Part shown: piece after piece, positions 3,286-44,617 of the stretch
How the letters are laid out: every line of letters starts with the position of its first letter
Numbering within the stretch: the first letter of the stretch is position 1
Origin: Muricea muricata
Lineage: Eukaryota > Cnidaria > Anthozoa > Malacalcyonacea > Plexauridae
Direction: 5' to 3'
Length of the DNA stretch: 64,000 bases
Assembly: GCA_963855995.1 (NCBI GenBank)
Contig: OY979718.1
Span: 26,526,282 to 26,590,281 of the forward strand
Program-made: the position numbers and the translations under genes
Notes under the pieces: generated by a model
What the model was told of the DNA's origin: nothing
Seen by the model: the letters and a program-made list of their open reading frames with translations, nothing else
The model's database searches: none

Positions 3286-3327
3286 GGTTAGCACTATTTT
3301 CCATCCAGCAAACCGCCCTATCAATTT
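3286..3327 (+). repeat. Left terminal inverted repeat of the MULE
   Basis: All 42 bases match the reverse complement of 10081-10122. Identity ends abruptly after CAATTT. The flanking nonamer is duplicated at the other end. Confidence 0.92.
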
Positions 3328-10080: not shown

Positions 10081-10122
10081 AAATTGATAGGGCGGTTTGC
10101 TGGATGGAAAATAGTGCTAACC
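10081..10122 (-). repeat. Right terminal inverted repeat of the MULE
   Basis: Exact reverse complement of the 42-bp left end. It is followed by CGAACGGAT (10123-10131), the right copy of the target-site duplication. Confidence 0.92.
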
Positions 10123-10140
10123 CGAACGGATATCCATTCA

Positions 10141-10239
10141 GCCAGCAGCGATTTATTATGCCAACACTACAGAGATTTATTATGCCAACAGAGATCATTA
10201 AGCCAACCGAGATTTATTAAGCCAACAGGGATTGGATCA
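10141..10239. repeat. About 19-bp minisatellite at the left edge of the array
   Basis: About five imperfect copies of a gccaacagagatttatta-type motif lie here, with one copy lengthened by a few bases. The last two copies are also the first bases of the 5.4-kb unit, so the array begins inside this minisatellite. A degenerate copy lies left of the MULE at 3256-3285. Confidence 0.7.
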
Positions 10240-10574
10240 ATTTAAGTTAAAGCCCCCCCTATGCATTGGGTGGCGTATATTTAAATAACAAAATTTCGCG
10301 TTTAAATATACGCCCCCCCCCCCCCCCCCTTTAAACAAGCGTTAATTTCCGTATTATCGTTCGTATTTGTTTTGAAATTGCATATACTCATATTTAACGA
10401 AACTGGAAGGAGATACTTTATATATAAAATAACAAATTTCAGTATTGCACATTGTTTTAACAGGCTTGTTTTCACACCTTTCGTATATTGTTTTAAAGGC
10501 CGGATTAACAGTGGTAACTCAGCCATTATAAGATAATGTGTCAGATTCTCAAATCAAACATACGATACATATAT

Positions 10575-10715
10575 GTTATTTACCGGATGGGAGGTCCGTA
10601 CAGGAAAAATATTTTGTCGAGGTCTCAAAAACGGGCCGAGGCCGAAGGCCAAGAGACGTTTTTGAGACCGAGACAAAATATTTTTCAGTACGGACCGACC
10701 TAAACGGTAAATAAC
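10575..10715. mobile_element. Hairpin MITE A of the array unit
   Basis: A palindrome with arms of about 57 bp: GTTATTTACCGG at the left end, CGGTAAATAAC at the right, and GAGGTCTCAAAAAC facing GTTTTTGAGACC around a GGCCGAAGGCC-containing loop. Other copies: 16009-16149, 21444-21584, 26885-27025, 34095-34235 and 39536-39676. No coding capacity and no clear target duplication. Confidence 0.75.
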
Positions 10716-11829
10716 GTTTTTATTTTTTTCTGCGTAATGCATGATTAAACCCTTACGAAAATCCAGTGTTGCGAACATGCTTTGAGATCAGCTAGTTTGT
10801 TACTTTACTTCAATATTTATTCAAGCATGGCTGACAAACAGCTAAAACGAAGACTATACTTTCTGTGCTACTGATGTTTTTATACTCAATACGGCAATGA
10901 AAAAGGTGAGTTAATACGATTTTTTATTTTATCGTTCGTTTTACGAAACAAACAGGGTTGAAATATGCGTTTTGACACAGAAAGTTTGATTTTCGATTAG
11001 CGAAAATCAGATTTAGTTTTTGACAACATTTAATAATAAAATTTTAAGTCCAGGAATCAACTTTAAACTGCAGGTTAGTTGTCAAAGTGTTACTAAACAG
11101 TATTATTTTTGGGTTTTTGTATGTTTCACTGTTTATTTCAATGTGTGCTTTTTACTTTTGGATGAGTACCGTGTATAATATGTACGCCGGCTTTTACATG
11201 TACGGCTTTGCTCGGCTTTGTTTGTAAAATTTTGTTATAAATTCTGCCGTTTTTTTCGTTGTTTCAAGATATCGTAAAAAGCCGCCCGCTCGTGCAGCCA
11301 ATCAAATTGCAGGAAATCACAAAATAACTCTAGTCGTGCACAAATAAAAAAATAATTTGTGTTATTCGGTATTCCAGTCCAGTTTACATTGAGCCTGAAC
11401 CACAAAATAAAAATTAACCACAAGGTCTTCGCCTACCCTGTGTTCAGGTTGGTTTGCATTCACTAATTTACCGACATTCAAATGACAGTGCATTTGGCCT
11501 TTGAAGGAAGTCGACCTTGAGGTATCTCCGTATAAAGGTCATTTTCCTTACCCATCCCTGTCGACTTTTCCCCCTAAGGCCTAAGAACTGTTCCACCAAT
11601 AAGGCAGGAAGTATACTTGATTACTTGATCACTTTATGCTATAGTTTTAGTTAGTTTAACCATGTAATTGTATAAGCACAGGCATCCCAGCACATAGCTA
11701 CTGTCAATCACGCCTGTGGTATAAGTTAGCAAATTGATTGCTATGTATGATAATATTTTGCATTCGTTTGTTGCAACTTGTGATGTACCAAAATAAAATT
11801 TTAGTCATTTTGGTGAAATGGAAGGAAAT

Positions 11830-12116
11830 TTAGAAACTTTTGGAAAGAAAGCACTGAGATACAATGTTTTCCACGATGTGAAAAGTTTTCAATTTTGACT
11901 TTTTGAGCAATACAGGCTGTGCGTCACAAAGTTTTACATGATTAGTCAGGGAACCTTTATTGAAATACTCAGTAATTACTGACCTTTCATTGTAATAAGC
12001 GTCCTCAATGTCTTTTAAAACCTCAGTACCACATTGTGGACAATAATATTATATGTAAGTTTTAACAAAAAAGCACAATTGGAACAGTTCTCAGAAAACC
12101 TTGGAATTTCAGCCAT
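11830..12116 (-). pseudogene. Zinc-ribbon fragment, likely start of a transposon integrase-type protein (unit 1)
   Basis: On the minus strand an ATG at 12116 opens MAEIPRFSENCSNCAF, giving one Cys pair. In a different frame from 12042 to 11830 the sequence reads CPQCGTEVLKDIEDAYYNER, then VITEYFNKG, then a stop. Two CxxC knuckles split across frames form a zinc ribbon broken by a frameshift. I connect it loosely with integrase-core proteins of cnidarian transposons that begin with a CPxCG ribbon; that link is inference. The same sequence recurs in every unit. Confidence 0.45.
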
Positions 12117-12560
12117 GTTTGGATTGGAATACCGAATAACCGAATAAAAAAATCTGACACATTATCTTGACAAATCCGTAGGATTGGATGCGCCATTTTT
12201 TTAATTAAGAAAATCGACTTTTAGTCTTTCGAACTATGCTTCGAACGGGATTTCCACACCCACTGATCTGATAAGTAAACTGGATCAACTTCAGTGAGCC
12301 AATTCTAACTAGCCTGCGTACCAGGCGGTTAGGGCGCGAGCGAAGGGTGGAAAAAATCGCCTGCGGAAAAACTAGTAGTTTTTAATTCCCGCCCCCAATT
12401 AGTAGGTCTACTAATAGAATTATGACTAACCAATCATGTAATACTTTTCACATGTCAAATTCACGTTGCCTCAAAACAATAATACAACAGCTCGAACTGT
12501 CAAATTATTACGCGTGAAATATATTCATGCAAACGATCAACGACACACATTGATGTAATG

Positions 12561-12770
12561 AAAAATCAGATTTGCAATGCATTTGCAACCCAGTGCCAAG
12601 ATGCAAATGCCGCGAAGGCAACAAATTTGTATGCAAATTTAATCATTTTTGTTTTCAGTGTTTTCAAATTTGCACACAAGTTTGCACTATGGCAAATTTG
12701 TTGCCTTCGCGGCATTTGCATCTTGGCACTGACTGGGTTAAGGTTGCAAATGTATTGCAAATCTGATTTT
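12561..12770. mobile_element. Hairpin MITE B of the array unit
   Basis: The ends AAAAATCAGATTTGCAAT and ATTGCAAATCTGATTTTT are inverted copies, and the arms run about 70-80 bp, including TGCCAAGATGCAAATGCCGC and its complement. Open frames on both strands here are side products of the palindrome. Other copies: 17995-18204, 23430-23639, 30646-30855, 36081-36290 and 43297-43506. Confidence 0.75.
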
Positions 12771-13495
12771 TTATCCTATACAAATTATTGCTCTTTCCAT
12801 GATGCAATCTATGATCACATAGTTCCTGTTCTGACTTTGTGCTGTATAAATATTTAAAAAATGAAGAATAAGATATCCCCTAGAATGAATTTGTTGAGTT
12901 CCATCTACGCTAGGTGTAATTTATATGGACATATCTTTTTCTACTCCCCAAATTCACAAAATCGAACGCTATTTTTACTTCTTTTGCAATTCTATCATCA
13001 AAACTATATTAGAAAATACTGACAGTATCATAAGCATTTGTATTTTTTTAATGCTGTTTTTTTAATTTATCATTGTATTGTATTACCACTTATCCCAGCC
13101 TGACTGAACTAGTAGCATTTATATAACAGTATGTTTTAGGTTAATACCAATATCTCATATCCTGTTTAACATTTAGATACTAGTATTAAGACCATGAGAA
13201 TTTTATGCATTAATACCTTGTTTAAGCTATTAAGCACCTGTGCTCTCCCCTTGGCAAGTAAAATCGTATAGATTTAATTACTGTAAAATAAGAGTAGGCA
13301 TTATCAAAGTAAGGTGCGTTACAATTCAAAGGATTAGCTGGACATGTAGGCAAATAGGCCAGTTAAAGTTCAAGAGTTGTGTGTGAATCTGTATTATTCT
13401 CCTCAAACTGCTGTGTAACTGTATTTTCCACATTAGTTTATAACTACCAACACGCATATGGTGATGTCATGGTGTGGTCCCTTTTTGTCTCTTTA

Positions 13496-13644
13496 GCGAG
13501 GTTTAGCAAACACGACGCGACGTCAAAGACGACGTGAGAATGGCGTCAAAATGGCGTTGCAACATCCTTAAATGGTCATATCACGCCATTTTGACGCCAT
13601 TCTCACGTCGTCTTTGACGTCGCGTCGTGTTTGCTAAACCTCGC
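13496..13644. mobile_element. Hairpin MITE C of the array unit
   Basis: A near-perfect palindrome with arms of about 65 bp starting GCGAGGTTTAGCAAACACG, flanked by TA on the left and TT on the right. Other copies: 18930-19078, 24365-24513, 31581-31729, 37016-37164 and 44232-44380. A diverged relative with the same ends (GAGGTTTAGCAAA) lies outside the array at 60301-60445, so the family is dispersed in this genome. Confidence 0.8.
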
Positions 13645-13794
13645 TTTTAATTTGTTGTGGGGTATGGCCTATGCTACCACACCCACACTTGGTTCACGTC
13701 TCTCAGCCGTGCATATCACGCATGAAGCGAAAAAAAAGGCGCGAACATGAGAAAGGCGTCTATTGCTTTTGTTTACTAGTTTTGATCTTAAAGT

Positions 13795-15254
13795 ATGAAC
13801 GAAAGTGTCAGTGAAAACACTCCTGCAAAAACTGCTATTAGGTTATCAGCGCCATAAAGAGAATGTATTTGACAATGTGTATATGACAATTTTCTCTGTC
13901 TTTTACAAGTGCAAAGATATTGAGTTCCTCACACTGGTCAATCCCCTTGACAATTACATTCCATTGGTGTTGAGTATTTATTCCATAGTCTTCAAGTGCA
14001 ACAAGTATGAACTGTTTTATGAATCATTAATCCACTGTTGGGTTATGTTTGTTGTGTTCCGCCGACGCCACTACGACAAAGCACTACTGGTGCCACTTTC
14101 TGCACTCCTCCACTGGCAAGAAAATATCCCATCCATGTTCAACACCCTACATCAACACTTGTTGGCTTTTGACGAATATCCAGTGGAGAATTTTCATTCG
14201 CTGTTACGACGAAGAACAAAAGAAGCAGACACTGCAGATCACATTGCACTCAAGGCCAAAGAAATTGATGTCTGCAAACATGATCTAAATGCCTTCCAAT
14301 CTGTATTTGTACCACCTAGAAAGTTTAATTTCAGTACAAAAAGAATAGATAAGTTGAAAACCAAAGCAGCCAAATTTCTAACCAACAAGTTTGAGACCCT
14401 CTATACAAACCCCAACAAAGCTTTTCAACAACCTCGGGCACCCCGTCAACCTAAACACACAAGCAAGTGGAAACTTCCTAACCTGTTTGGTCAAAAAATT
14501 GTTACCAATCAAGTCCTACCTCTAGGATTCTTGTCTGTGGAAAACCAACCAAACCCAGCCAGGTAAATGGAATAATATTCTTACATACCTCAATTAAAAA
14601 AACCCCAAGCCTTTAATACTTCACTATTCAAAGAGATCTTGGTTTACTTAGGACATGCACATGCTTTGAAAAACACAACACACTCTGTTATTAAAAAAGG
14701 CACATGTGATGAATAGAGGGTAGAGTTGGGACAACCTTTAATTAGCACATGTTAATGAAGTTCTCACATATTTAATAGAGCTCATTTAATATTTTAAGTC
14801 GTGACAAATTATAATAATATGAATTATAAAATATAAAACTTACTTTAAAACTTTTAGGAAATGCGATTTGCTCAACTGCAACAAACAGAGCTCCATGTGA
14901 ACGGTTTTTCATGGATGTGGGCCATATAGTATAGCTCAGTGATGTGGGCATTCGTTCCACATCGCATGCATCCTCCCAAATATCGGAGATTGCCCGATCT
15001 GTAACACAGCGTTATTGTCAAAAGTTAAAGAGCTTGGTCAAACAGCAAACAAGTCTGTTTCAAATGTGTCCGTGCCTTCTGCTGCTGAGGAAAGCGACGA
15101 GAACGAGGAATTAAGTGACGATGATGACGACGACGAGTACGACCAACTGGTCGACGATCAAAGCGAAACAATAAACATTGACACTTTGTTACAAAGAATT
15201 CGCCATTGGCGAACGCTGGAGTCGAGCCGTGATCACGATGATGGCCAGTCATAA
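13795..15254 (+). pseudogene. Broken two-exon gene ending in a RING-H2-like domain (unit 1)
   Basis: An ATG at 13795 opens a frame (MNESVSENTPAKTAIRLSA) that stops after about 20 codons. An overlapping frame shifted by one base carries on for about 240 codons to a donor at 14564 (GCCAG then gtaaat). It contains EYPVENFHSLLRRRTKEAD and KHTSKWKLPNLFG, features of a widespread uncharacterised cnidarian repeat-associated family (recollection, not checked). The acceptor before 14858 restores frame: KCDLLNC...CGHSFHIACI...CPICN, a RING-H2-like ligand pattern, then an acidic tail with a D6 run. This exon carries TGA stops at 14898 and 14940. One frameshift and two stops make it a pseudogene. Confidence 0.72.
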
Positions 15255-15616
15255 CCTGCAAAACCTGGTGACACATCTCCAGCATAAAGTGTGCATAAAG
15301 GAAGTAAGGTAACACAAAGCTACGTCTACATATAGTATCGATAGAGCTGATTGGTATCTTTCTTGCGCGCATAAAAACACGGTTATTGAAACGTTGATCT
15401 TTCGCGTTCTAGATCAAATTTAAAAAATTCCCCCGAGGAAATTGTAAAAAAAATCACGCTTTCTCACAATTTGTTGTTTTTGAAGTGAGAAGTGCAATAA
15501 CGAATGGCACGGAGGCCATAGAACAAGGTGCTATTTTCCCACTCCTTTTGTTTACACATTGTGAATTTCATGCATTCTGATTGGTCAATTACGCAAAATG
15601 TCAACAAACGCGCTGA

Positions 15617-15647
15617 TTGGCTAACATTATTCGCCCTTGTTAGCCAA
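15617..15647. repeat. Inverted repeat spanning the unit 1/2 junction
   Basis: TTGGCTAAC and GTTAGCCAA, nine perfectly complementary bases, enclose a 13-base loop exactly across the unit boundary. The same structure lies at 21051-21081, 26486-26516, 33702-33732 and 39137-39167. It exists only where two units are joined, because the right half belongs to the next unit. Confidence 0.8.
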
Positions 15648-17263
15648 CCGAGATTTATTAAGCCAACAGGGATTGGATCAATTTAAGTTAAAGCCCCCCC
15701 TATGCATTGGGTGGCGTATATTTAAATAACAAAATTTCGCGTTTAAATATACGCCCCCCCCCCTTTAAACAAGCGTTAATTTCCGTATTATCGTTCGTAT
15801 TTGTTTTGAAATTGCATATACTCATATTTAACGAAACTGGAAGGAGATACTTTATATATAAAATAACAAATTTCAGTATTGCACATTGTTTTAACAGGCT
15901 TGTTTTCACACCTTTCGTATATTGTTTTAAAGGCCGGATTAACAGTGGTAACTCAGCCATTATAAGATAATGTGTCAGATTCTCAAATCAAACATACGAT
16001 ACATATATGTTATTTACCGGATGGGAGGTCCGTACAGGAAAAATATTTTGTCGAGGTCTCAAAAACGGGCCGAGGCCGAAGGCCAAGAGACGTTTTTGAG
16101 ACCGAGACAAAATATTTTTCAGTACGGACCGACCTAAACGGTAAATAACGTTTTTATTTTTTTCTGCGTAATGCATGATTAAACCCTTACGAAAATCCAG
16201 TGTTGCGAACATGCTTTGAGATCAGCTAGTTTGTTACTTTACTTCAATATTTATTCAAGCATGGCTGACAAACAGCTAAAACGAAGACTATACTTTCTGT
16301 GCTACTGATGTTTTTATACTCAATACGGCAATGAAAAAGGTGAGTTAATACGATTTTTTATTTTATCGTTCGTTTTACGAAACAAACAGGGTTGAAATAT
16401 GCGTTTTGACACAGAAAGTTTGATTTTCGATTAGCGAAAATCAGATTTAGTTTTTGACAACATTTAATAATAAAATTTTAAGTCCAGGAATCAACTTTAA
16501 ACTGCAGGTTAGTTGTCAAAGTGTTACTAAACAGTATTATTTTTGGGTTTTTGTATGTTTCACTGTTTATTTCAATGTGTGCTTTTTACTTTTGGATGAG
16601 TACCGTGTATAATATGTACGCCGGCTTTTACATGTACGGCTTTGCTCGGCTTTGTTTGTAAAATTTTGTTATAAATTCTGCCGTTTTTTTCGTTGTTTCA
16701 AGATATCGTAAAAAGCCGCCCGCTCGTGCAGCCAATCAAATTGCAGGAAATCACAAAATAACTCTAGTCGTGCACAAATAAAAAAATAATTTGTGTTATT
16801 CGGTATTCCAGTCCAGTTTACATTGAGCCTGAACCACAAAATAAAAATTAACCACAAGGTCTTCGCCTACCCTGTGTTCAGGTTGGTTTGCATTCACTAA
16901 TTTACCGACATTCAAATGACAGTGCATTTGGCCTTTGAAGGAAGTCGACCTTGAGGTATCTCCGTATAAAGGTCATTTTCCTTACCCATCCCTGTCGACT
17001 TTTCCCCCTAAGGCCTAAGAACTGTTCCACCAATAAGGCAGGAAGTATACTTGATTACTTGATCACTTTATGCTATAGTTTTAGTTAGTTTAACCATGTA
17101 ATTGTATAAGCACAGGCATCCCAGCACATAGCTACTGTCAATCACGCCTGTGGTATAAGTTAGCAAATTGATTGCTATGTATGATAATATTTTGCATTCG
17201 TTTGTTGCAACTTGTGATGTACCAAAATAAAATTTTAGTCATTTTGGTGAAATGGAAGGAAAT

Positions 17264-17550
17264 TTAGAAACTTTTGGAAAGAAAGCACTGAGATACAATG
17301 TTTTCCACGATGTGAAAAGTTTTCAATTTTGACTTTTTGAGCAATACAGGCTGTGCGTCACAAAGTTTTACATGATTAGTCAGGGAACCTTTATTGAAAT
17401 ACTCAGTAATTACTGACCTTTCATTGTAATAAGCGTCCTCAATGTCTTTTAAAACCTCAGTACCACATTGTGGACAATAATATTATATGTAAGTTTTAAC
17501 AAAAAAGCACAATTGGAACAGTTCTCAGAAAACCTTGGAATTTCAGCCAT
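17264..17550 (-). pseudogene. Zinc-ribbon fragment (unit 2)
   Basis: Same frame-broken CSNC/CPQCG sequence as at 11830-12116 in unit 1. Confidence 0.42.
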
Positions 17551-19228
17551 GTTTGGATTGGAATACCGAATAACCGAATAAAAAAATCTGACACATTATC
17601 TTGACAAATCCGTAGGATTGGATGCGCCATTTTTTTAATTAAGAAAATCGACTTTTAGTCTTTCGAACTATGCTTCGAACGGGATTTCCACACCCACTGA
17701 TCTGATAAGTAAACTGGATCAACTTCAGTGAGCCAATTCTAACTAGCCTGCGTACCAGGCGGTTAGGGCGCGAGCGAAGGGTGGAAAAAATCGCCTGCGG
17801 AAAAACTAGTAGTTTTTAATTCCCGCCCCCAATTAGTAGGTCTACTAATAGAATTATGACTAACCAATCATGTAATACTTTTCACATGTCAAATTCACGT
17901 TGCCTCAAAACAATAATACAACAGCTCGAACTGTCAAATTATTACGCGTGAAATATATTCATGCAAACGATCAACGACACACATTGATGTAATGAAAAAT
18001 CAGATTTGCAATGCATTTGCAACCCAGTGCCAAGATGCAAATGCCGCGAAGGCAACAAATTTGTATGCAAATTTAATCATTTTTGTTTTCAGTGTTTTCA
18101 AATTTGCACACAAGTTTGCACTATGGCAAATTTGTTGCCTTCGCGGCATTTGCATCTTGGCACTGACTGGGTTAAGGTTGCAAATGTATTGCAAATCTGA
18201 TTTTTTATCCTATACAAATTATTGCTCTTTCCATGATGCAATCTATGATCACATAGTTCCTGTTCTGACTTTGTGCTGTATAAATATTTAAAAAATGAAG
18301 AATAAGATATCCCCTAGAATGAATTTGTTGAGTTCCATCTACGCTAGGTGTAATTTATATGGACATATCTTTTTCTACTCCCCAAATTCACAAAATCGAA
18401 CGCTATTTTTACTTCTTTTGCAATTCTATCATCAAAACTATATTAGAAAATACTGACAGTATCATAAGCATTTGTATTTTTTTAATGCTGTTTTTTTAAT
18501 TTATCATTGTATTGTATTACCACTTATCCCAGCCTGACTGAACTAGTAGCATTTATATAACAGTATGTTTTAGGTTAATACCAATATCTCATATCCTGTT
18601 TAACATTTAGATACTAGTATTAAGACCATGAGAATTTTATGCATTAATACCTTGTTTAAGCTATTAAGCACCTGTGCTCTCCCCTTGGCAAGTAAAATCG
18701 TATAGATTTAATTACTGTAAAATAAGAGTAGGCATTATCAAAGTAAGGTGCGTTACAATTCAAAGGATTAGCTGGACATGTAGGCAAATAGGCCAGTTAA
18801 AGTTCAAGAGTTGTGTGTGAATCTGTATTATTCTCCTCAAACTGCTGTGTAACTGTATTTTCCACATTAGTTTATAACTACCAACACGCATATGGTGATG
18901 TCATGGTGTGGTCCCTTTTTGTCTCTTTAGCGAGGTTTAGCAAACACGACGCGACGTCAAAGACGACGTGAGAATGGCGTCAAAATGGCGTTGCAACATC
19001 CTTAAATGGTCATATCACGCCATTTTGACGCCATTCTCACGTCGTCTTTGACGTCGCGTCGTGTTTGCTAAACCTCGCTTTTAATTTGTTGTGGGGTATG
19101 GCCTATGCTACCACACCCACACTTGGTTCACGTCTCTCAGCCGTGCATATCACGCATGAAGCGAAAAAAAAGGCGCGAACATGAGAAAGGCGTCTATTGC
19201 TTTTGTTTACTAGTTTTGATCTTAAAGT

Positions 19229-20688
19229 ATGAACGAAAGTGTCAGTGAAAACACTCCTGCAAAAACTGCTATTAGGTTATCAGCGCCATAAAGAGAATGT
19301 ATTTGACAATGTGTATATGACAATTTTCTCTGTCTTTTACAAGTGCAAAGATATTGAGTTCCTCACACTGGTCAATCCCCTTGACAATTACATTCCATTG
19401 GTGTTGAGTATTTATTCCATAGTCTTCAAGTGCAACAAGTATGAACTGTTTTATGAATCATTAATCCACTGTTGGGTTATGTTTGTTGTGTTCCGCCGAC
19501 GCCACTACGACAAAGCACTACTGGTGCCACTTTCTGCACTCCTCCACTGGCAAGAAAATATCCCATCCATGTTCAACACCCTACATCAACACTTGTTGGC
19601 TTTTGACGAATATCCAGTGGAGAATTTTCATTCGCTGTTACGACGAAGAACAAAAGAAGCAGACACTGCAGATCACATTGCACTCAAGGCCAAAGAAATT
19701 GATGTCTGCAAACATGATCTAAATGCCTTCCAATCTGTATTTGTACCACCTAGAAAGTTTAATTTCAGTACAAAAAGAATAGATAAGTTGAAAACCAAAG
19801 CAGCCAAATTTCTAACCAACAAGTTTGAGACCCTCTATACAAACCCCAACAAAGCTTTTCAACAACCTCGGGCACCCCGTCAACCTAAACACACAAGCAA
19901 GTGGAAACTTCCTAACCTGTTTGGTCAAAAAATTGTTACCAATCAAGTCCTACCTCTAGGATTCTTGTCTGTGGAAAACCAACCAAACCCAGCCAGGTAA
20001 ATGGAATAATATTCTTACATACCTCAATTAAAAAAACCCCAAGCCTTTAATACTTCACTATTCAAAGAGATCTTGGTTTACTTAGGACATGCACATGCTT
20101 TGAAAAACACAACACACTCTGTTATTAAAAAAGGCACATGTGATGAATAGAGGGTAGAGTTGGGACAACCTTTAATTAGCACATGTTAATGAAGTTCTCA
20201 CATATTTAATAGAGCTCATTTAATATTTTAAGTCGTGACAAATTATAATAATATGAATTATAAAATATAAAACTTACTTTAAAACTTTTAGGAAATGCGA
20301 TTTGCTCAACTGCAACAAACAGAGCTCCATGTGAACGGTTTTTCATGGATGTGGGCCATATAGTATAGCTCAGTGATGTGGGCATTCGTTCCACATCGCA
20401 TGCATCCTCCCAAATATCGGAGATTGCCCGATCTGTAACACAGCGTTATTGTCAAAAGTTAAAGAGCTTGGTCAAACAGCAAACAAGTCTGTTTCAAATG
20501 TGTCCGTGCCTTCTGCTGCTGAGGAAAGCGACGAGAACGAGGAATTAAGTGACGATGATGACGACGACGAGTACGACCAACTGGTCGACGATCAAAGCGA
20601 AACAATAAACATTGACACTTTGTTACAAAGAATTCGCCATTGGCGAACGCTGGAGTCGAGCCGTGATCACGATGATGGCCAGTCATAA
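19229..20688 (+). pseudogene. Broken RING-bearing gene (unit 2)
   Basis: Copy of 13795-15254: the same frameshift near the start, the same donor and acceptor and the same two in-frame TGAs in exon 2. Confidence 0.7.
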
Positions 20689-22698
20689 CCTGCAAAACCT
20701 GGTGACACATCTCCAGCATAAAGTGTGCATAAAGGAAGTAAGGTAACACAAAGCTACGTCTACATATAGTATCGATAGAGCTGATTGGTATCTTTCTTGC
20801 GCGCATAAAAACACGGTTATTGAAACGTTGATCTTTCGCGTTCTAGATCAAATTTAAAAAATTCCCCCGAGGAAATTGTAAAAAAAATCACGCTTTCTCA
20901 CAATTTGTTGTTTTTGAAGTGAGAAGTGCAATAACGAATGGCACGGAGGCCATAGAACAAGGTGCTATTTTCCCACTCCTTTTGTTTACACATTGTGAAT
21001 TTCATGCATTCTGATTGGTCAATTACGCAAAATGTCAACAAACGCGCTGATTGGCTAACATTATTCGCCCTTGTTAGCCAACCGAGATTTATTAAGCCAA
21101 CAGGGATTGGATCAATTTAAGTTAAAGCCCCCCCTATGCATTGGGTGGCGTATATTTAAATAACAAAATTTCGCGTTTAAATATACGCCCCCCCCCCCTT
21201 TAAACAAGCGTTAATTTCCGTATTATCGTTCGTATTTGTTTTGAAATTGCATATACTCATATTTAACGAAACTGGAAGGAGATACTTTATATATAAAATA
21301 ACAAATTTCAGTATTGCACATTGTTTTAACAGGCTTGTTTTCACACCTTTCGTATATTGTTTTAAAGGCCGGATTAACAGTGGTAACTCAGCCATTATAA
21401 GATAATGTGTCAGATTCTCAAATCAAACATACGATACATATATGTTATTTACCGGATGGGAGGTCCGTACAGGAAAAATATTTTGTCGAGGTCTCAAAAA
21501 CGGGCCGAGGCCGAAGGCCAAGAGACGTTTTTGAGACCGAGACAAAATATTTTTCAGTACGGACCGACCTAAACGGTAAATAACGTTTTTATTTTTTTCT
21601 GCGTAATGCATGATTAAACCCTTACGAAAATCCAGTGTTGCGAACATGCTTTGAGATCAGCTAGTTTGTTACTTTACTTCAATATTTATTCAAGCATGGC
21701 TGACAAACAGCTAAAACGAAGACTATACTTTCTGTGCTACTGATGTTTTTATACTCAATACGGCAATGAAAAAGGTGAGTTAATACGATTTTTTATTTTA
21801 TCGTTCGTTTTACGAAACAAACAGGGTTGAAATATGCGTTTTGACACAGAAAGTTTGATTTTCGATTAGCGAAAATCAGATTTAGTTTTTGACAACATTT
21901 AATAATAAAATTTTAAGTCCAGGAATCAACTTTAAACTGCAGGTTAGTTGTCAAAGTGTTACTAAACAGTATTATTTTTGGGTTTTTGTATGTTTCACTG
22001 TTTATTTCAATGTGTGCTTTTTACTTTTGGATGAGTACCGTGTATAATATGTACGCCGGCTTTTACATGTACGGCTTTGCTCGGCTTTGTTTGTAAAATT
22101 TTGTTATAAATTCTGCCGTTTTTTTCGTTGTTTCAAGATATCGTAAAAAGCCGCCCGCTCGTGCAGCCAATCAAATTGCAGGAAATCACAAAATAACTCT
22201 AGTCGTGCACAAATAAAAAAATAATTTGTGTTATTCGGTATTCCAGTCCAGTTTACATTGAGCCTGAACCACAAAATAAAAATTAACCACAAGGTCTTCG
22301 CCTACCCTGTGTTCAGGTTGGTTTGCATTCACTAATTTACCGACATTCAAATGACAGTGCATTTGGCCTTTGAAGGAAGTCGACCTTGAGGTATCTCCGT
22401 ATAAAGGTCATTTTCCTTACCCATCCCTGTCGACTTTTCCCCCTAAGGCCTAAGAACTGTTCCACCAATAAGGCAGGAAGTATACTTGATTACTTGATCA
22501 CTTTATGCTATAGTTTTAGTTAGTTTAACCATGTAATTGTATAAGCACAGGCATCCCAGCACATAGCTACTGTCAATCACGCCTGTGGTATAAGTTAGCA
22601 AATTGATTGCTATGTATGATAATATTTTGCATTCGTTTGTTGCAACTTGTGATGTACCAAAATAAAATTTTAGTCATTTTGGTGAAATGGAAGGAAAT

Positions 22699-22985
22699 TT
22701 AGAAACTTTTGGAAAGAAAGCACTGAGATACAATGTTTTCCACGATGTGAAAAGTTTTCAATTTTGACTTTTTGAGCAATACAGGCTGTGCGTCACAAAG
22801 TTTTACATGATTAGTCAGGGAACCTTTATTGAAATACTCAGTAATTACTGACCTTTCATTGTAATAAGCGTCCTCAATGTCTTTTAAAACCTCAGTACCA
22901 CATTGTGGACAATAATATTATATGTAAGTTTTAACAAAAAAGCACAATTGGAACAGTTCTCAGAAAACCTTGGAATTTCAGCCAT
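22699..22985 (-). pseudogene. Zinc-ribbon fragment (unit 3)
   Basis: Same frame-broken CSNC/CPQCG sequence as in unit 1. Confidence 0.42.
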
Positions 22986-29914: not shown

Positions 29915-30201
29915 TTAGAAACTTTTGGAAAGAAAGCACTGAGATACAATGTTTTCCACGATGTGAAAAGTTTTCAATTTTGACTTTTTGAGCAATACAG
30001 GCTGTGCGTCACAAAGTTTTACATGATTAGTCAGGGAACCTTTATTGAAATACTCAGTAATTACTGACCTTTCATTGTAATAAGCGTCCTCAATGTCTTT
30101 TAAAACCTCAGTACCACATTGTGGACAATAATATTATATGTAAGTTTTAACAAAAAAGCACAATTGGAACAGTTCTCAGAAAACCTTGGAATTTCAGCCA
30201 T
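29915..30201 (-). pseudogene. Zinc-ribbon fragment (unit 4)
   Basis: Same frame-broken CSNC/CPQCG sequence as in unit 1. Confidence 0.42.
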
Positions 30202-33339: not shown

Positions 33340-35349
33340 CCTGCAAAACCTGGTGACACATCTCCAGCATAAAGTGTGCATAAAGGAAGTAAGGTAACAC
33401 AAAGCTACGTCTACATATAGTATCGATAGAGCTGATTGGTATCTTTCTTGCGCGCATAAAAACACGGTTATTGAAACGTTGATCTTTCGCGTTCTAGATC
33501 AAATTTAAAAAATTCCCCCGAGGAAATTGTAAAAAAAATCACGCTTTCTCACAATTTGTTGTTTTTGAAGTGAGAAGTGCAATAACGAATGGCACGGAGG
33601 CCATAGAACAAGGTGCTATTTTCCCACTCCTTTTGTTTACACATTGTGAATTTCATGCATTCTGATTGGTCAATTACGCAAAATGTCAACAAACGCGCTG
33701 ATTGGCTAACATTATTCGCCCTTGTTAGCCAACCGAGATTTATTAAGCCAACAGGGATTGGATCAATTTAAGTTAAAGCCCCCCCTATGCATTGGGTGGC
33801 GTATATTTAAATAACAAAATTTCGCGTTTAAATATACGCCCCCCCCCCCTTTAAACAAGCGTTAATTTCCGTATTATCGTTCGTATTTGTTTTGAAATTG
33901 CATATACTCATATTTAACGAAACTGGAAGGAGATACTTTATATATAAAATAACAAATTTCAGTATTGCACATTGTTTTAACAGGCTTGTTTTCACACCTT
34001 TCGTATATTGTTTTAAAGGCCGGATTAACAGTGGTAACTCAGCCATTATAAGATAATGTGTCAGATTCTCAAATCAAACATACGATACATATATGTTATT
34101 TACCGGATGGGAGGTCCGTACAGGAAAAATATTTTGTCGAGGTCTCAAAAACGGGCCGAGGCCGAAGGCCAAGAGACGTTTTTGAGACCGAGACAAAATA
34201 TTTTTCAGTACGGACCGACCTAAACGGTAAATAACGTTTTTATTTTTTTCTGCGTAATGCATGATTAAACCCTTACGAAAATCCAGTGTTGCGAACATGC
34301 TTTGAGATCAGCTAGTTTGTTACTTTACTTCAATATTTATTCAAGCATGGCTGACAAACAGCTAAAACGAAGACTATACTTTCTGTGCTACTGATGTTTT
34401 TATACTCAATACGGCAATGAAAAAGGTGAGTTAATACGATTTTTTATTTTATCGTTCGTTTTACGAAACAAACAGGGTTGAAATATGCGTTTTGACACAG
34501 AAAGTTTGATTTTCGATTAGCGAAAATCAGATTTAGTTTTTGACAACATTTAATAATAAAATTTTAAGTCCAGGAATCAACTTTAAACTGCAGGTTAGTT
34601 GTCAAAGTGTTACTAAACAGTATTATTTTTGGGTTTTTGTATGTTTCACTGTTTATTTCAATGTGTGCTTTTTACTTTTGGATGAGTACCGTGTATAATA
34701 TGTACGCCGGCTTTTACATGTACGGCTTTGCTCGGCTTTGTTTGTAAAATTTTGTTATAAATTCTGCCGTTTTTTTCGTTGTTTCAAGATATCGTAAAAA
34801 GCCGCCCGCTCGTGCAGCCAATCAAATTGCAGGAAATCACAAAATAACTCTAGTCGTGCACAAATAAAAAAATAATTTGTGTTATTCGGTATTCCAGTCC
34901 AGTTTACATTGAGCCTGAACCACAAAATAAAAATTAACCACAAGGTCTTCGCCTACCCTGTGTTCAGGTTGGTTTGCATTCACTAATTTACCGACATTCA
35001 AATGACAGTGCATTTGGCCTTTGAAGGAAGTCGACCTTGAGGTATCTCCGTATAAAGGTCATTTTCCTTACCCATCCCTGTCGACTTTTCCCCCTAAGGC
35101 CTAAGAACTGTTCCACCAATAAGGCAGGAAGTATACTTGATTACTTGATCACTTTATGCTATAGTTTTAGTTAGTTTAACCATGTAATTGTATAAGCACA
35201 GGCATCCCAGCACATAGCTACTGTCAATCACGCCTGTGGTATAAGTTAGCAAATTGATTGCTATGTATGATAATATTTTGCATTCGTTTGTTGCAACTTG
35301 TGATGTACCAAAATAAAATTTTAGTCATTTTGGTGAAATGGAAGGAAAT

Positions 35350-35636
35350 TTAGAAACTTTTGGAAAGAAAGCACTGAGATACAATGTTTTCCACGATGTG
35401 AAAAGTTTTCAATTTTGACTTTTTGAGCAATACAGGCTGTGCGTCACAAAGTTTTACATGATTAGTCAGGGAACCTTTATTGAAATACTCAGTAATTACT
35501 GACCTTTCATTGTAATAAGCGTCCTCAATGTCTTTTAAAACCTCAGTACCACATTGTGGACAATAATATTATATGTAAGTTTTAACAAAAAAGCACAATT
35601 GGAACAGTTCTCAGAAAACCTTGGAATTTCAGCCAT
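35350..35636 (-). pseudogene. Zinc-ribbon fragment (unit 5)
   Basis: Same frame-broken CSNC/CPQCG sequence as in unit 1. Confidence 0.42.
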
Positions 35637-37314
35637 GTTTGGATTGGAATACCGAATAACCGAATAAAAAAATCTGACACATTATCTTGACAAATCCGTA
35701 GGATTGGATGCGCCATTTTTTTAATTAAGAAAATCGACTTTTAGTCTTTCGAACTATGCTTCGAACGGGATTTCCACACCCACTGATCTGATAAGTAAAC
35801 TGGATCAACTTCAGTGAGCCAATTCTAACTAGCCTGCGTACCAGGCGGTTAGGGCGCGAGCGAAGGGTGGAAAAAATCGCCTGCGGAAAAACTAGTAGTT
35901 TTTAATTCCCGCCCCCAATTAGTAGGTCTACTAATAGAATTATGACTAACCAATCATGTAATACTTTTCACATGTCAAATTCACGTTGCCTCAAAACAAT
36001 AATACAACAGCTCGAACTGTCAAATTATTACGCGTGAAATATATTCATGCAAACGATCAACGACACACATTGATGTAATGAAAAATCAGATTTGCAATGC
36101 ATTTGCAACCCAGTGCCAAGATGCAAATGCCGCGAAGGCAACAAATTTGTATGCAAATTTAATCATTTTTGTTTTCAGTGTTTTCAAATTTGCACACAAG
36201 TTTGCACTATGGCAAATTTGTTGCCTTCGCGGCATTTGCATCTTGGCACTGACTGGGTTAAGGTTGCAAATGTATTGCAAATCTGATTTTTTATCCTATA
36301 CAAATTATTGCTCTTTCCATGATGCAATCTATGATCACATAGTTCCTGTTCTGACTTTGTGCTGTATAAATATTTAAAAAATGAAGAATAAGATATCCCC
36401 TAGAATGAATTTGTTGAGTTCCATCTACGCTAGGTGTAATTTATATGGACATATCTTTTTCTACTCCCCAAATTCACAAAATCGAACGCTATTTTTACTT
36501 CTTTTGCAATTCTATCATCAAAACTATATTAGAAAATACTGACAGTATCATAAGCATTTGTATTTTTTTAATGCTGTTTTTTTAATTTATCATTGTATTG
36601 TATTACCACTTATCCCAGCCTGACTGAACTAGTAGCATTTATATAACAGTATGTTTTAGGTTAATACCAATATCTCATATCCTGTTTAACATTTAGATAC
36701 TAGTATTAAGACCATGAGAATTTTATGCATTAATACCTTGTTTAAGCTATTAAGCACCTGTGCTCTCCCCTTGGCAAGTAAAATCGTATAGATTTAATTA
36801 CTGTAAAATAAGAGTAGGCATTATCAAAGTAAGGTGCGTTACAATTCAAAGGATTAGCTGGACATGTAGGCAAATAGGCCAGTTAAAGTTCAAGAGTTGT
36901 GTGTGAATCTGTATTATTCTCCTCAAACTGCTGTGTAACTGTATTTTCCACATTAGTTTATAACTACCAACACGCATATGGTGATGTCATGGTGTGGTCC
37001 CTTTTTGTCTCTTTAGCGAGGTTTAGCAAACACGACGCGACGTCAAAGACGACGTGAGAATGGCGTCAAAATGGCGTTGCAACATCCTTAAATGGTCATA
37101 TCACGCCATTTTGACGCCATTCTCACGTCGTCTTTGACGTCGCGTCGTGTTTGCTAAACCTCGCTTTTAATTTGTTGTGGGGTATGGCCTATGCTACCAC
37201 ACCCACACTTGGTTCACGTCTCTCAGCCGTGCATATCACGCATGAAGCGAAAAAAAAGGCGCGAACATGAGAAAGGCGTCTATTGCTTTTGTTTACTAGT
37301 TTTGATCTTAAAGT

Positions 37315-38774
37315 ATGAACGAAAGTGTCAGTGAAAACACTCCTGCAAAAACTGCTATTAGGTTATCAGCGCCATAAAGAGAATGTATTTGACAATGTGT
37401 ATATGACAATTTTCTCTGTCTTTTACAAGTGCAAAGATATTGAGTTCCTCACACTGGTCAATCCCCTTGACAATTACATTCCATTGGTGTTGAGTATTTA
37501 TTCCATAGTCTTCAAGTGCAACAAGTATGAACTGTTTTATGAATCATTAATCCACTGTTGGGTTATGTTTGTTGTGTTCCGCCGACGCCACTACGACAAA
37601 GCACTACTGGTGCCACTTTCTGCACTCCTCCACTGGCAAGAAAATATCCCATCCATGTTCAACACCCTACATCAACACTTGTTGGCTTTTGACGAATATC
37701 CAGTGGAGAATTTTCATTCGCTGTTACGACGAAGAACAAAAGAAGCAGACACTGCAGATCACATTGCACTCAAGGCCAAAGAAATTGATGTCTGCAAACA
37801 TGATCTAAATGCCTTCCAATCTGTATTTGTACCACCTAGAAAGTTTAATTTCAGTACAAAAAGAATAGATAAGTTGAAAACCAAAGCAGCCAAATTTCTA
37901 ACCAACAAGTTTGAGACCCTCTATACAAACCCCAACAAAGCTTTTCAACAACCTCGGGCACCCCGTCAACCTAAACACACAAGCAAGTGGAAACTTCCTA
38001 ACCTGTTTGGTCAAAAAATTGTTACCAATCAAGTCCTACCTCTAGGATTCTTGTCTGTGGAAAACCAACCAAACCCAGCCAGGTAAATGGAATAATATTC
38101 TTACATACCTCAATTAAAAAAACCCCAAGCCTTTAATACTTCACTATTCAAAGAGATCTTGGTTTACTTAGGACATGCACATGCTTTGAAAAACACAACA
38201 CACTCTGTTATTAAAAAAGGCACATGTGATGAATAGAGGGTAGAGTTGGGACAACCTTTAATTAGCACATGTTAATGAAGTTCTCACATATTTAATAGAG
38301 CTCATTTAATATTTTAAGTCGTGACAAATTATAATAATATGAATTATAAAATATAAAACTTACTTTAAAACTTTTAGGAAATGCGATTTGCTCAACTGCA
38401 ACAAACAGAGCTCCATGTGAACGGTTTTTCATGGATGTGGGCCATATAGTATAGCTCAGTGATGTGGGCATTCGTTCCACATCGCATGCATCCTCCCAAA
38501 TATCGGAGATTGCCCGATCTGTAACACAGCGTTATTGTCAAAAGTTAAAGAGCTTGGTCAAACAGCAAACAAGTCTGTTTCAAATGTGTCCGTGCCTTCT
38601 GCTGCTGAGGAAAGCGACGAGAACGAGGAATTAAGTGACGATGATGACGACGACGAGTACGACCAACTGGTCGACGATCAAAGCGAAACAATAAACATTG
38701 ACACTTTGTTACAAAGAATTCGCCATTGGCGAACGCTGGAGTCGAGCCGTGATCACGATGATGGCCAGTCATAA
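37315..38774 (+). pseudogene. Broken RING-bearing gene (unit 5)
   Basis: Copy of 13795-15254 with the identical frameshift and stops. Confidence 0.7.
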
Positions 38775-39781
38775 CCTGCAAAACCTGGTGACACATCTCC
38801 AGCATAAAGTGTGCATAAAGGAAGTAAGGTAACACAAAGCTACGTCTACATATAGTATCGATAGAGCTGATTGGTATCTTTCTTGCGCGCATAAAAACAC
38901 GGTTATTGAAACGTTGATCTTTCGCGTTCTAGATCAAATTTAAAAAATTCCCCCGAGGAAATTGTAAAAAAAATCACGCTTTCTCACAATTTGTTGTTTT
39001 TGAAGTGAGAAGTGCAATAACGAATGGCACGGAGGCCATAGAACAAGGTGCTATTTTCCCACTCCTTTTGTTTACACATTGTGAATTTCATGCATTCTGA
39101 TTGGTCAATTACGCAAAATGTCAACAAACGCGCTGATTGGCTAACATTATTCGCCCTTGTTAGCCAACCGAGATTTATTAAGCCAACAGGGATTGGATCA
39201 ATTTAAGTTAAAGCCCCCCCTATGCATTGGGTGGCGTATATTTAAATAACAAAATTTCGCGTTTAAATATACGCCCCCCCCCCCCCCCCCTTTAAACAAG
39301 CGTTAATTTCCGTATTATCGTTCGTATTTGTTTTGAAATTGCATATACTCATATTTAACGAAACTGGAAGGAGATACTTTATATATAAAATAACAAATTT
39401 CAGTATTGCACATTGTTTTAACAGGCTTGTTTTCACACCTTTCGTATATTGTTTTAAAGGCCGGATTAACAGTGGTAACTCAGCCATTATAAGATAATGT
39501 GTCAGATTCTCAAATCAAACATACGATACATATATGTTATTTACCGGATGGGAGGTCCGTACAGGAAAAATATTTTGTCGAGGTCTCAAAAACGGGCCGA
39601 GGCCGAAGGCCAAGAGACGTTTTTGAGACCGAGACAAAATATTTTTCAGTACGGACCGACCTAAACGGTAAATAACGTTTTTATTTTTTTCTGCGTAATG
39701 CATGATTAAACCCTTACGAAAATCCAGTGTTGCGAACATGCTTTGAGATCAGCTAGTTTGTTACTTTACTTCAATATTTAT

Positions 39782-41548
39782 CATAGATATAGTAGGTCTA
39801 GATTGCTGACTCATAGTATAATTACTATTGCGTAGGCGTGACCTGTATGATAAATCCAAGATGGCGCGGGAACCGGGCAAAAAACTATAAGACTCTACAG
39901 GGAAATCCATGTTTTTCGCGATTTAAAACGTCTCGTTGCTTGGAATCGCCTCGAATCAACATTTTTTCCAAACAACTAGTTATTGCGGAAGTTTTGAGCA
40001 CAATTTGTATAATTTCTGTTGAATTCCTCGTGAAAATCTCGCTCGTGAAATGTGTTGTGAATTGGTCACTTGGTCAGTTCGAGACATTTGTTGTCCAAAA
40101 TATGTATTTTTGACCGGCTTTGGCCTCTTGGGTGTTATTGCGACCTACAGCTATCCTAAATCAAACATTTACAAAACGATGGAGCAAGATGTTCGCGTAC
40201 AAATCGATTATTCGCTTGATTTGTGTGGTGTGTGATTTTCATTTACAATCATGTATACTGTAATGCAGTGTCACAGTGTGTCGATGAATCTATGGAGTAA
40301 GATGATACATTTTTTGACGTTGCCAATTTGAAAATTATTCTAACGGTATTTGTGTTCACTTCATACAATGTCTTTCACGCTTAATTAGGCTTAAATTTGT
40401 GTTGAGTGTGTGCAAACTACCCACACTGAAAAGTTTTATTTTGCGCACAAAAGATCCTTTTCACCAGAGAATTTTGCGCAGAAATGTAGAAAACTTCTAG
40501 AGTCTAATCAGGTGGTCTGGGTTCAGTTCAGTTGATGACCCTCAGACTCAGTAAATAAATTTATCATCATCAATTTACCATTATCAATATTAAGCACAGT
40601 TGACAGGTTAGCCTAGATTTTCTGATGATTTGTGCAGATTTCTTCATGAATTATTAATGATTTTATAATCACGACTAATTGTTCATTGGAATATAGCAAA
40701 TGGGCATTAGAATATTGCTTTACCATACTCACATGTTTGCAGACTTTGCTCCAATGTTGCACAAGCTAGCAAGCAGGTGCATGTTGCATTCTATGTACAG
40801 TGTATGCAAAAGTATGCCAAAGTTTACCATTATGTTAATTTTAAAGTAAACATATAGTTTAAATTCAAATAAAAAAATTTCGGTCATTAAACTGTGGACT
40901 GTTCAGTTAATTCTACCCACATTTCACACACTATTCACACGAACGAAACTTGCAGCTGTAGCACCAGTTTTCGATTATATTTTAGTAATGCATATTACAT
41001 AATTCAGACAATATTTACTTGATAACCTATCCGTCTTTGAAGTTCGAAAACGGTACGTTGGCTTGAAGTCGTATCTATGTAGTAAATATTACTAACGTTC
41101 AGGTATCACACACCACACAAATCAAGCGAAAATCGATTTGTACGCGAATATCTTGCTCCATCGTTTTGTAAATGTTTAATTTAGGATAGCTGTAGGTCAC
41201 AATAACACCCAAGAGGCCAAAGCCGGTCAAAAATACATATTTTGGACCACAAATGTCTCGAACCGTGACCAAGTGACCAATTCACAACACATTTCACGAG
41301 CGAGATTTTCACGAGGAATTCAGCAGAAATTACACAAATAGTGCTCAAAACTTCCGTAATAATTAGTTGTTTCCAAAAAATGTTGATTCGAAGCGATTCC
41401 AAGCAACGAGACGTTTGAAATCGCGAAAAACATTGATTTCCCTGTAGAGTCTTATAGTTTTTTGCCCGGTTCCCGCGCCATCTTGGATTTATCATACAGG
41501 TCACGCCTCCGATTAGTGAGTCAGCAATCTAGACCTACTATGTCTATG
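39782..41548. mobile_element. Second copy of the hAT-like long-inverted-repeat element
   Basis: Same length, ends and ATATTTAT target duplication (39774-39781 and 41549-41556) as the copy at 27131-28897, at the same unit position. The distance between the copies is 12651 bp, the exact length of units 4 plus 5. It therefore arose by duplication of DNA already carrying the insertion, not by a second transposition. Confidence 0.82.
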
Positions 41549-42565
41549 ATATTTATTCAAGCATGGCTGACAAACAGCTAAAACGAAGACTATACTTTCT
41601 GTGCTACTGATGTTTTTATACTCAATACGGCAATGAAAAAGGTGAGTTAATACGATTTTTTATTTTATCGTTCGTTTTACGAAACAAACAGGGTTGAAAT
41701 ATGCGTTTTGACACAGAAAGTTTGATTTTCGATTAGCGAAAATCAGATTTAGTTTTTGACAACATTTAATAATAAAATTTTAAGTCCAGGAATCAACTTT
41801 AAACTGCAGGTTAGTTGTCAAAGTGTTACTAAACAGTATTATTTTTGGGTTTTTGTATGTTTCACTGTTTATTTCAATGTGTGCTTTTTACTTTTGGATG
41901 AGTACCGTGTATAATATGTACGCCGGCTTTTACATGTACGGCTTTGCTCGGCTTTGTTTGTAAAATTTTGTTATAAATTCTGCCGTTTTTTTCGTTGTTT
42001 CAAGATATCGTAAAAAGCCGCCCGCTCGTGCAGCCAATCAAATTGCAGGAAATCACAAAATAACTCTAGTCGTGCACAAATAAAAAAATAATTTGTGTTA
42101 TTCGGTATTCCAGTCCAGTTTACATTGAGCCTGAACCACAAAATAAAAATTAACCACAAGGTCTTCGCCTACCCTGTGTTCAGGTTGGTTTGCATTCACT
42201 AATTTACCGACATTCAAATGACAGTGCATTTGGCCTTTGAAGGAAGTCGACCTTGAGGTATCTCCGTATAAAGGTCATTTTCCTTACCCATCCCTGTCGA
42301 CTTTTCCCCCTAAGGCCTAAGAACTGTTCCACCAATAAGGCAGGAAGTATACTTGATTACTTGATCACTTTATGCTATAGTTTTAGTTAGTTTAACCATG
42401 TAATTGTATAAGCACAGGCATCCCAGCACATAGCTACTGTCAATCACGCCTGTGGTATAAGTTAGCAAATTGATTGCTATGTATGATAATATTTTGCATT
42501 CGTTTGTTGCAACTTGTGATGTACCAAAATAAAATTTTAGTCATTTTGGTGAAATGGAAGGAAAT

Positions 42566-42852
42566 TTAGAAACTTTTGGAAAGAAAGCACTGAGATACAA
42601 TGTTTTCCACGATGTGAAAAGTTTTCAATTTTGACTTTTTGAGCAATACAGGCTGTGCGTCACAAAGTTTTACATGATTAGTCAGGGAACCTTTATTGAA
42701 ATACTCAGTAATTACTGACCTTTCATTGTAATAAGCGTCCTCAATGTCTTTTAAAACCTCAGTACCACATTGTGGACAATAATATTATATGTAAGTTTTA
42801 ACAAAAAAGCACAATTGGAACAGTTCTCAGAAAACCTTGGAATTTCAGCCAT
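42566..42852 (-). pseudogene. Zinc-ribbon fragment (unit 6)
   Basis: Same frame-broken CSNC/CPQCG sequence as in unit 1. Confidence 0.42.
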
Positions 42853-44530
42853 GTTTGGATTGGAATACCGAATAACCGAATAAAAAAATCTGACACATTA
42901 TCTTGACAAATCCGTAGGATTGGATGCGCCATTTTTTTAATTAAGAAAATCGACTTTTAGTCTTTCGAACTATGCTTCGAACGGGATTTCCACACCCACT
43001 GATCTGATAAGTAAACTGGATCAACTTCAGTGAGCCAATTCTAACTAGCCTGCGTACCAGGCGGTTAGGGCGCGAGCGAAGGGTGGAAAAAATCGCCTGC
43101 GGAAAAACTAGTAGTTTTTAATTCCCGCCCCCAATTAGTAGGTCTACTAATAGAATTATGACTAACCAATCATGTAATACTTTTCACATGTCAAATTCAC
43201 GTTGCCTCAAAACAATAATACAACAGCTCGAACTGTCAAATTATTACGCGTGAAATATATTCATGCAAACGATCAACGACACACATTGATGTAATGAAAA
43301 ATCAGATTTGCAATGCATTTGCAACCCAGTGCCAAGATGCAAATGCCGCGAAGGCAACAAATTTGTATGCAAATTTAATCATTTTTGTTTTCAGTGTTTT
43401 CAAATTTGCACACAAGTTTGCACTATGGCAAATTTGTTGCCTTCGCGGCATTTGCATCTTGGCACTGACTGGGTTAAGGTTGCAAATGTATTGCAAATCT
43501 GATTTTTTATCCTATACAAATTATTGCTCTTTCCATGATGCAATCTATGATCACATAGTTCCTGTTCTGACTTTGTGCTGTATAAATATTTAAAAAATGA
43601 AGAATAAGATATCCCCTAGAATGAATTTGTTGAGTTCCATCTACGCTAGGTGTAATTTATATGGACATATCTTTTTCTACTCCCCAAATTCACAAAATCG
43701 AACGCTATTTTTACTTCTTTTGCAATTCTATCATCAAAACTATATTAGAAAATACTGACAGTATCATAAGCATTTGTATTTTTTTAATGCTGTTTTTTTA
43801 ATTTATCATTGTATTGTATTACCACTTATCCCAGCCTGACTGAACTAGTAGCATTTATATAACAGTATGTTTTAGGTTAATACCAATATCTCATATCCTG
43901 TTTAACATTTAGATACTAGTATTAAGACCATGAGAATTTTATGCATTAATACCTTGTTTAAGCTATTAAGCACCTGTGCTCTCCCCTTGGCAAGTAAAAT
44001 CGTATAGATTTAATTACTGTAAAATAAGAGTAGGCATTATCAAAGTAAGGTGCGTTACAATTCAAAGGATTAGCTGGACATGTAGGCAAATAGGCCAGTT
44101 AAAGTTCAAGAGTTGTGTGTGAATCTGTATTATTCTCCTCAAACTGCTGTGTAACTGTATTTTCCACATTAGTTTATAACTACCAACACGCATATGGTGA
44201 TGTCATGGTGTGGTCCCTTTTTGTCTCTTTAGCGAGGTTTAGCAAACACGACGCGACGTCAAAGACGACGTGAGAATGGCGTCAAAATGGCGTTGCAACA
44301 TCCTTAAATGGTCATATCACGCCATTTTGACGCCATTCTCACGTCGTCTTTGACGTCGCGTCGTGTTTGCTAAACCTCGCTTTTAATTTGTTGTGGGGTA
44401 TGGCCTATGCTACCACACCCACACTTGGTTCACGTCTCTCAGCCGTGCATATCACGCATGAAGCGAAAAAAAAGGCGCGAACATGAGAAAGGCGTCTATT
44501 GCTTTTGTTTACTAGTTTTGATCTTAAAGT

Positions 44531-44617
44531 ATGAACGAAAGTGTCAGTGAAAACACTCCTGCAAAAACTGCTATTAGGTTATCAGCGCCATAAAGAGAAT
44601 GTATTTGACAATGTGTA
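44531..44617 (+). pseudogene. Broken RING-bearing gene, 5' stub (unit 6)
   Basis: Only the first 87 bases of the copy remain, including the frameshift region; the rest is lost at the array's right edge. Confidence 0.65.

Follow-up and report, generated by a model that had tools for sequence, protein, structure and literature searches.

How did one stretch of DNA in the anthozoan Muricea muricata (Plexauridae) come to stand six times in tandem, with half a transposon between each copy and the next? The passage from a single-copy locus to a tandem array is usually hard to trace because the first joint is lost or ambiguous. The array considered here lies in a window of 64,000 nucleotides (the whole stretch of DNA analysed; assembly GCA_963855995.1, contig OY979718.1, positions 26,526,282 to 26,590,281, forward strand) and alternates a local segment, A, with a segment, B, which is one arm of a palindromic transposon. 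We regard it as a recent tandem amplification whose origin is unusually legible, and which is most likely without function. The reading that we prefer, at a probability of about 0.72, is that the array started as an A-B-A arrangement, formed at a half-element lying in its own target site, and then grew by recombination.

Layout of the array and its foreign joint

A 40-mer copy-number scan together with alignment placed the array at 10201-44617, exactly where an earlier sequence-only reading had put it, and resolved six copies (each unit starts with a copy of A; Table 1). Unit lengths are 5441, 5434, 5435, 7216, 5435 and 5456 bp, the sixth unit being partial and ending at 44617. When the poly-C tract and a 1,775-bp insertion (units 4 and 6) are subtracted, all five complete units measure 5,424 bp, the figure given in the sequence-only reading. 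Its impression by eye that substitutions were absent held up in pairwise alignment (0 substitutions in 15 of 15 comparisons; 3,674-5,456 aligned bases per pair), and the units differ in the length of the poly-C tract and in the insertion only. Positions 16247-31966 are identical to positions 28898-44617 (15,720 bp at a lag of 12,651 bp); this identity, which the sequence-only reading does not mention, fits either a two-unit block copied after the insertion or an assembly loop. The window has no N, and the copy number of six, being that of the assembly, is uncertain. With zero substitutions the age would be at most about 29,000 generations at 95% under an assumed rate of 3 × 10−9 per site per generation and an assumed star tree; because both are assumed, this bound is not relied on.

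The order of segments is left flank - A - (B - A)x5 - right flank. Since A (3.68 kb of local DNA) is present six times and B (1.76 kb) five times, the number of units is not whole. The sequence-only reading had described the unit as transposon debris, which is accurate for the third or so that is a single transposon arm; the remainder is locus-specific DNA that carries copies of other transposons. That reading also left undecided whether very recent amplification, homogenisation, circle reintegration or an assembly error lay behind the array. Amplification or homogenisation is backed by the lack of substitutions (the homopolymer and the insertion do differ), and the first step can now be narrowed by the half-transposon, an empty target site and a single hybrid joint.

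The unit boundary at 15641|15642 is the outer end of the transposon. The bases that follow it, from 15642 on, begin AGCCAACCG, and the same start is found at 10201 with no element before it; the array begins at precisely the base that comes first after an element end. As a degenerate 19-bp repeat runs across 10201, the junction between left flank and A looks native, in other words like an empty target site. Dispersed copies were searched for in the genome assembly (453 Mb, 74 contigs), where a part of the first-look candidates was scored for each query. Outside the array, the search with A yielded embedded repeats and diverged segments but no further full-length copy (40 of 655 and 40 of 645 candidates scored). 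Full matches to the hybrid A-B joint were confined to the five copies in the array (40 of 220 candidates scored), and the joint between A and the right flank was matched only at 44617 (40 of 165). A further locus of the same genome (L039, contig C1) matches parts of A and of the left flank, with the array edges not bridged.

There is one foreign joint, at which the end of A meets the centre of the element (13881/13889); every other joint would follow from an ancestral locus that had received one ordinary transposon insertion. By eye it reads GTGTA-TATG-ACA-ATTTTC, compared with GAGATATG-ATTTTC in the elements, so that TATG is common to both and 3 nt are filler. Between the break and the stem/loop boundary of the palindrome there are 10-19 nt; about 2% of element positions are within 18 nt of that boundary, a figure calculated post hoc. 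Two other accounts of the joints were rejected. An open frame across 13881 could have been a host exon and the A-B joint native, but element homology starts at 13889 and the sequence upstream of other copies differs. Snap-back repair from a 10-bp inverted repeat over the B-A joint was dismissed on the ground that this repeat is the element terminus beside the target site; inverted repeats with 9-bp arms occur at 118 of 34,200 positions.

The palindromic transposon and its coding relatives

Queried with B, the genome returned 60 match rows (40 of 163 first-look candidates scored), five of them within the array and many of the others arranged as close inverted pairs. Both orientations of B were found together in all 16 loci fetched, which had been chosen from the B matches. 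Arms of 1,734 and 1,736 bp, 99% complementary and spaced 320 and 318 bp apart, are present in loci L009 and L010, respectively, and B is 99.77% identical to the right arm of L010 over 1,753 bp; an interruption near window position 14761 divides the arms in L017-L024. The two-ended copies (n = 14) span 3,275-4,290 bp, with four of exactly 3,788 bp. Considering matches over 100 bases, the outer arm end fell on window base 15641 in 29 of 29 alignments from 15 of the 16 loci, and L024 showed no outer end among its listed matches of that size. A perfect 9-bp target duplication flanks 13 of the 14 two-ended copies (L016 is without one), a count that leaves out L012, with one outer end, and L024, with none listed. 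The termini are AACAAGGG...CCCTTGTT. With inverted repeats over most of its length, and with target duplications that attest its mobility, the source of B is a palindromic (foldback-type) DNA transposon. Mutator-like elements (MULE) are defined by target duplications of 9-11 bp and terminal inverted repeats. This element has both, yet it is not filed as a MULE because the 717-aa frame of its coding relative L047 (below) has no Pfam match at E ≤ 1.

Places that match the element terminus with at most one mismatch number 115 (63 forward, 52 reverse). The 100 listed among these include 42 -/+ pairs within 20.5 kb and 16 unpaired ends, five of which lie in the array, where only right halves of the element occur. 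The partner of an unpaired end may be more mismatched or belong to the other 15, and a pair need not be a palindromic copy; related coding elements share the termini. Among the 100 listed, the five in the array are the only same-strand ends that lie as close together as 37 kb.

The open frame in B corresponds to the C-terminal part of a protein with 150 scored matches (358 candidates). Open frames of 707-745 aa, uninterrupted by a stop across the match, contain 30 of the 150, and nine of these 30 have one identical score. L047 (66-4713; C2:26204965-26209612) is a 4,648-bp element with 282-bp inverted repeats (98.9%) and a 9-bp target duplication, TCCACCACG, whose termini match those of the palindromic element with no more than three substitutions. 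Its open frames of 150, 717 and 120 aa may be exons of one gene. B and L010 are 71-78% identical to L047: B matches the right 1.85 kb and also, through the inverted repeat, the left end, and L010 matches with both arms. This pattern makes the palindromic element look like a derivative of an L047 relative in which the right end was duplicated inversely. Neither Pfam nor PDB gave a match to the 717-aa frame at E ≤ 1, and an NCBIfam match (E = 0.00024, 20.2 bits against a cut-off of 200) was disregarded; the 120-aa frame has RING matches below the Pfam cut-offs, and the fragment in B alone drew PDB matches only at E = 0.4 or worse. Proteins of the 717-aa type would presumably be transposases, and that of L047 is a candidate transposase of an unclassified family. 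It is also worth noting that overlapping inverted repeats of up to 348 nt are plentiful beside the element copy in L010 (7210-8952).

How the array may have started

In the reading that we prefer, a palindromic element would have inserted at 10201-10209 on one chromatid and broken near the edge of its central loop. The piece consisting of half-element, A and right flank would then have been end-joined to an A end copied or broken from the chromatid with the empty site, giving A-B-A. The two identical 3.68-kb copies of A could subsequently recombine unequally to A(BA)5, after which the 1,767-bp element would enter one unit and be copied when, later, a block of two units was duplicated. The six copies of A and five of B are those predicted by an A-B-A start. 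The insertion is found in units 4 and 6, both with a poly-C of 17 and both preceded by a unit with a poly-C of 11, an order that fits a two-unit block duplication. Over 3,681 aligned bases no substitution separates the first A from the last. Since homologues in an outbred animal would be expected to differ, the favoured partners are not unrelated homologues but sister chromatids that had become unequal when the element was recently gained or lost, although later homogenisation could also have erased differences.

Several points weigh against this reading. The joint between A and the right flank is taken as native only from its uniqueness, and the array lacks the left end of the element, against which the 9-bp length of the target duplication would be measured. 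That the break falls so near the loop edge is a post hoc observation. Reintegration of a circle, or loss of an intact first element, is predicted to leave the same final structure. In yeast, the Mre11 complex is described as attacking hairpins only when their loops are under 9 nt (PMC8053094), and with an element loop of about 300 nt hairpin fragility alone would thus be a weak cause. Another study reportedly deals with single-stranded DNA in which inverted repeats are widely spaced.

Within an A-B-A start of this kind, the direct joint is the somewhat probable route, and the two other routes to the same structure are each rather doubtful. In one of them, unlikely when all readings are considered, the stretch from the element centre to the end of A would be excised and circularised by end-joining, which creates the A-B joint, and the circle, several circles or multimers would re-enter the empty-site chromosome by homologous recombination within A. 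Such a course predicts A(BA)n in which the first site is empty and A outnumbers B by six to five, and could yield several identical units at once; however, it takes two events where the direct joint takes one, and further change or multiplication of copies once they had formed is evident from the unequal poly-C lengths and from the insertion in two units. Equally unlikely overall is a tandem duplication in a single element-bearing chromatid, with breakpoints at the element centre and the end of A, after which the first position, where alone both ends had been kept, would have lost its intact element precisely. This would give the same structure and would account for the perfect identity of the A copies, but precise excision or gene conversion to the empty site is required, and 10201-10209 carries no footprint. 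Transposition itself may have been the seed, the element being gained or lost on one sister chromatid and its broken centre joined to the empty sister, so that A-half element-A would arise in one cell cycle; we hold this to be rather unlikely.

That there are fewer real units, through which the assembler looped, is quite improbable. The perfect identity over 15,720 bp at a lag of 12,651 bp is as long as many long reads, and the units are told apart by poly-C lengths and one insertion only. Nonetheless, the unit boundary is a real transposon end at a target site, the hybrid joint was met nowhere else among the candidates scored, three poly-C lengths and an insertion in two units distinguish the copies, misassembly would hardly create the A-B-A core, and the window is free of N. 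Assembly error alone would not set a boundary on a transposon terminus and an empty target site, though it could have altered the copy number. Helitrons are marked by TC/CTRR ends and lack target duplications. They do build tandem arrays according to a review of satellite DNA (PMC12628747), but for the array described here a rolling-circle origin is extremely unlikely: the 9-bp duplications around almost all two-ended copies contradict it, and no TC/CTRR ends were seen by eye at the array edges.

Neighbouring elements and known systems

The element inserted in units 4 and 6 belongs to a family with many copies, the best of those elsewhere being 97.7% identical, and has the ends CATAGA...TCTATG. 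Of eight dispersed copies, three have target duplications of 8 bp and one has 7 bp according to a script; a further two, on the minus strand and misread by the script, show 8 bp by eye, and the ends of the last two are incomplete. A also contains a near-perfect palindrome resembling a miniature inverted-repeat transposable element (MITE), which was probably active recently, as its copies elsewhere are 96-100% identical among those scored. The transposon of the left flank, 78 bp from the array, encodes ALS2CR8, ZSWIM RNaseH-like and MULE domains; Ulp1-type protease domains are encoded in a second frame, and matches to SWIM and PHD fell below the cut-off. FHY3/FAR1-like proteins are related to those of MULE. 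In L039 the matches to the two flanks of this transposon adjoin, overlapping by 9 bases, as expected of an empty site. When the right flank (44618-63999) was searched against Pfam in all six frames, in pieces, a SEFIR domain and a reverse transcriptase were the only matches at E ≤ 0.01. Taken together, the domains of both flanks would suggest animal DNA. Rfam at gathering scores and a tRNA search gave 0 matches each, and no relatives turned up in plasmids, viral contigs or prokaryote genomes.

Table 1. Positions of the array segments and of other features in the window
Feature	Positions	Strand	Remarks
Left-flank transposon	3286..10122	+	42-bp perfect terminal inverted repeats; 9-bp target duplication CGAACAGAT/CGAACGGAT (one mismatch, by eye)
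Degenerate 19-bp repeat	10126..10224	+	spans left array edge
Empty target site AGCCAACCG	10201..10209	+	left array edge; same 9 bases after each of five half-elements; length 9 taken from other copies
A copy 1	10201..13881	+	no half-element before it; poly-C 17
Other dispersed repeat family inside A	10564..11268	+	copies 94-98% identical among those scored; further piece to 11366
MITE-like palindromic element inside A	13493..13652	+	near-perfect palindrome; 63-bp perfect arms
B copy 1	13882..15641	+	7-base joint 13882-13888, then transposon right arm 13889-15641; outer end 15641
C-terminal fragment of the element's putative transposase	13889..14563	+	one of five array copies
A copy 2	15642..19315	+	poly-C 10
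B copy 2	19316..21075	+	
A copy 3	21076..24750	+	poly-C 11
B copy 3	24751..26510	+	
A copy 4	26511..31966	+	poly-C 17; carries insertion
Inserted element, unit 4	27131..28897	+	1,767 bp; inverted repeats of about 455 bp; 8-bp target duplication ATATTTAT
B copy 4	31967..33726	+	
A copy 5	33727..37401	+	poly-C 11
B copy 5	37402..39161	+	
A copy 6 (last)	39162..44617	+	poly-C 17; carries insertion; continues into right flank
Inserted element, unit 6	39782..41548	+	sequence and site identical to unit 4
SEFIR domain	48450-48680	-	E 3.3e-13; better of two stretches
Reverse transcriptase fragment (RVT_1)	62510-63334		E 2e-18

Among known systems, gap filling in Pack-TIR elements (PMC8277862) is described with features also seen here, namely an internal break in a DNA transposon, duplication of nearby sequence, microhomology at the joint and no new transposition. 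Captured sequence there lies between two transposon ends; the array, by contrast, lacks the left half of the element, and what was duplicated, in direct orientation and with later amplification, is the flank of the element itself. The array was accordingly not counted as a Pack-TIR: the internal break, the nearby source and the short microhomology are present, but with right halves only there is no capture between both ends. Yeast CUP1 arrays (PMC4232551) are similar in that a low-homology joint starts the duplication and unequal crossing-over alters copy number. That report, in the sections cited here, describes no transposon at the joint; its authors also sequenced a single-copy strain as a comparison, and a gene for a copper-binding metallothionein forms part of the unit. 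By analogy, the array would work like an end-joining or gap-filling duplication at an internally broken transposon, followed by CUP1-like expansion.

Reversed-ends transposition in maize (PMC3744419, PMC4270019) likewise ties a DNA transposon to tandem direct duplication. Its joints are described as carrying 8-bp target duplications, with the ends in new targets, whereas the foreign joint here is at the centre of the element and not at an end, for which reason the array was rejected as a product of that process. The EPSPS array of Kochia (PMC6808082) is comparable in the mobile element at its borders and in its model of unequal crossing-over, and the FHY3/FAR1-like coding element reported near it has a counterpart in the coding element found here; its units are given as tens of kilobases, with herbicide selection and the element at both borders. 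Transposon-derived satellite DNA, as reviewed in PMC12628747, is also tandem repeat drawn partly from a transposon. The array here is one locus with six copies of a 5.4-kb unit, two thirds of which is not this transposon. Satellite DNA forms long arrays, usually at many loci, and the array was not classed as such: full-length A occurs at one locus among the candidates scored, in six copies, and the 100 listed of 115 element ends include no other same-strand cluster within 37 kb. A literature search of titles and abstract openings recognised no case of the same arrangement, which is not to claim that none is in print.

The empty target site in the first copy, the half-element in the inner copies and the one hybrid joint make the initiating event of this array readable at base resolution. 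If the sister-chromatid reading is true, a locus with no repeat beforehand can be set on the way to copy-number expansion by one jump of a hairpin-forming transposon. If transposition itself was the seed, then an element whose putative transposase matches no Pfam family would have taken a direct path from a single transposon jump to a macrosatellite, by way of a duplication primed for further amplification.

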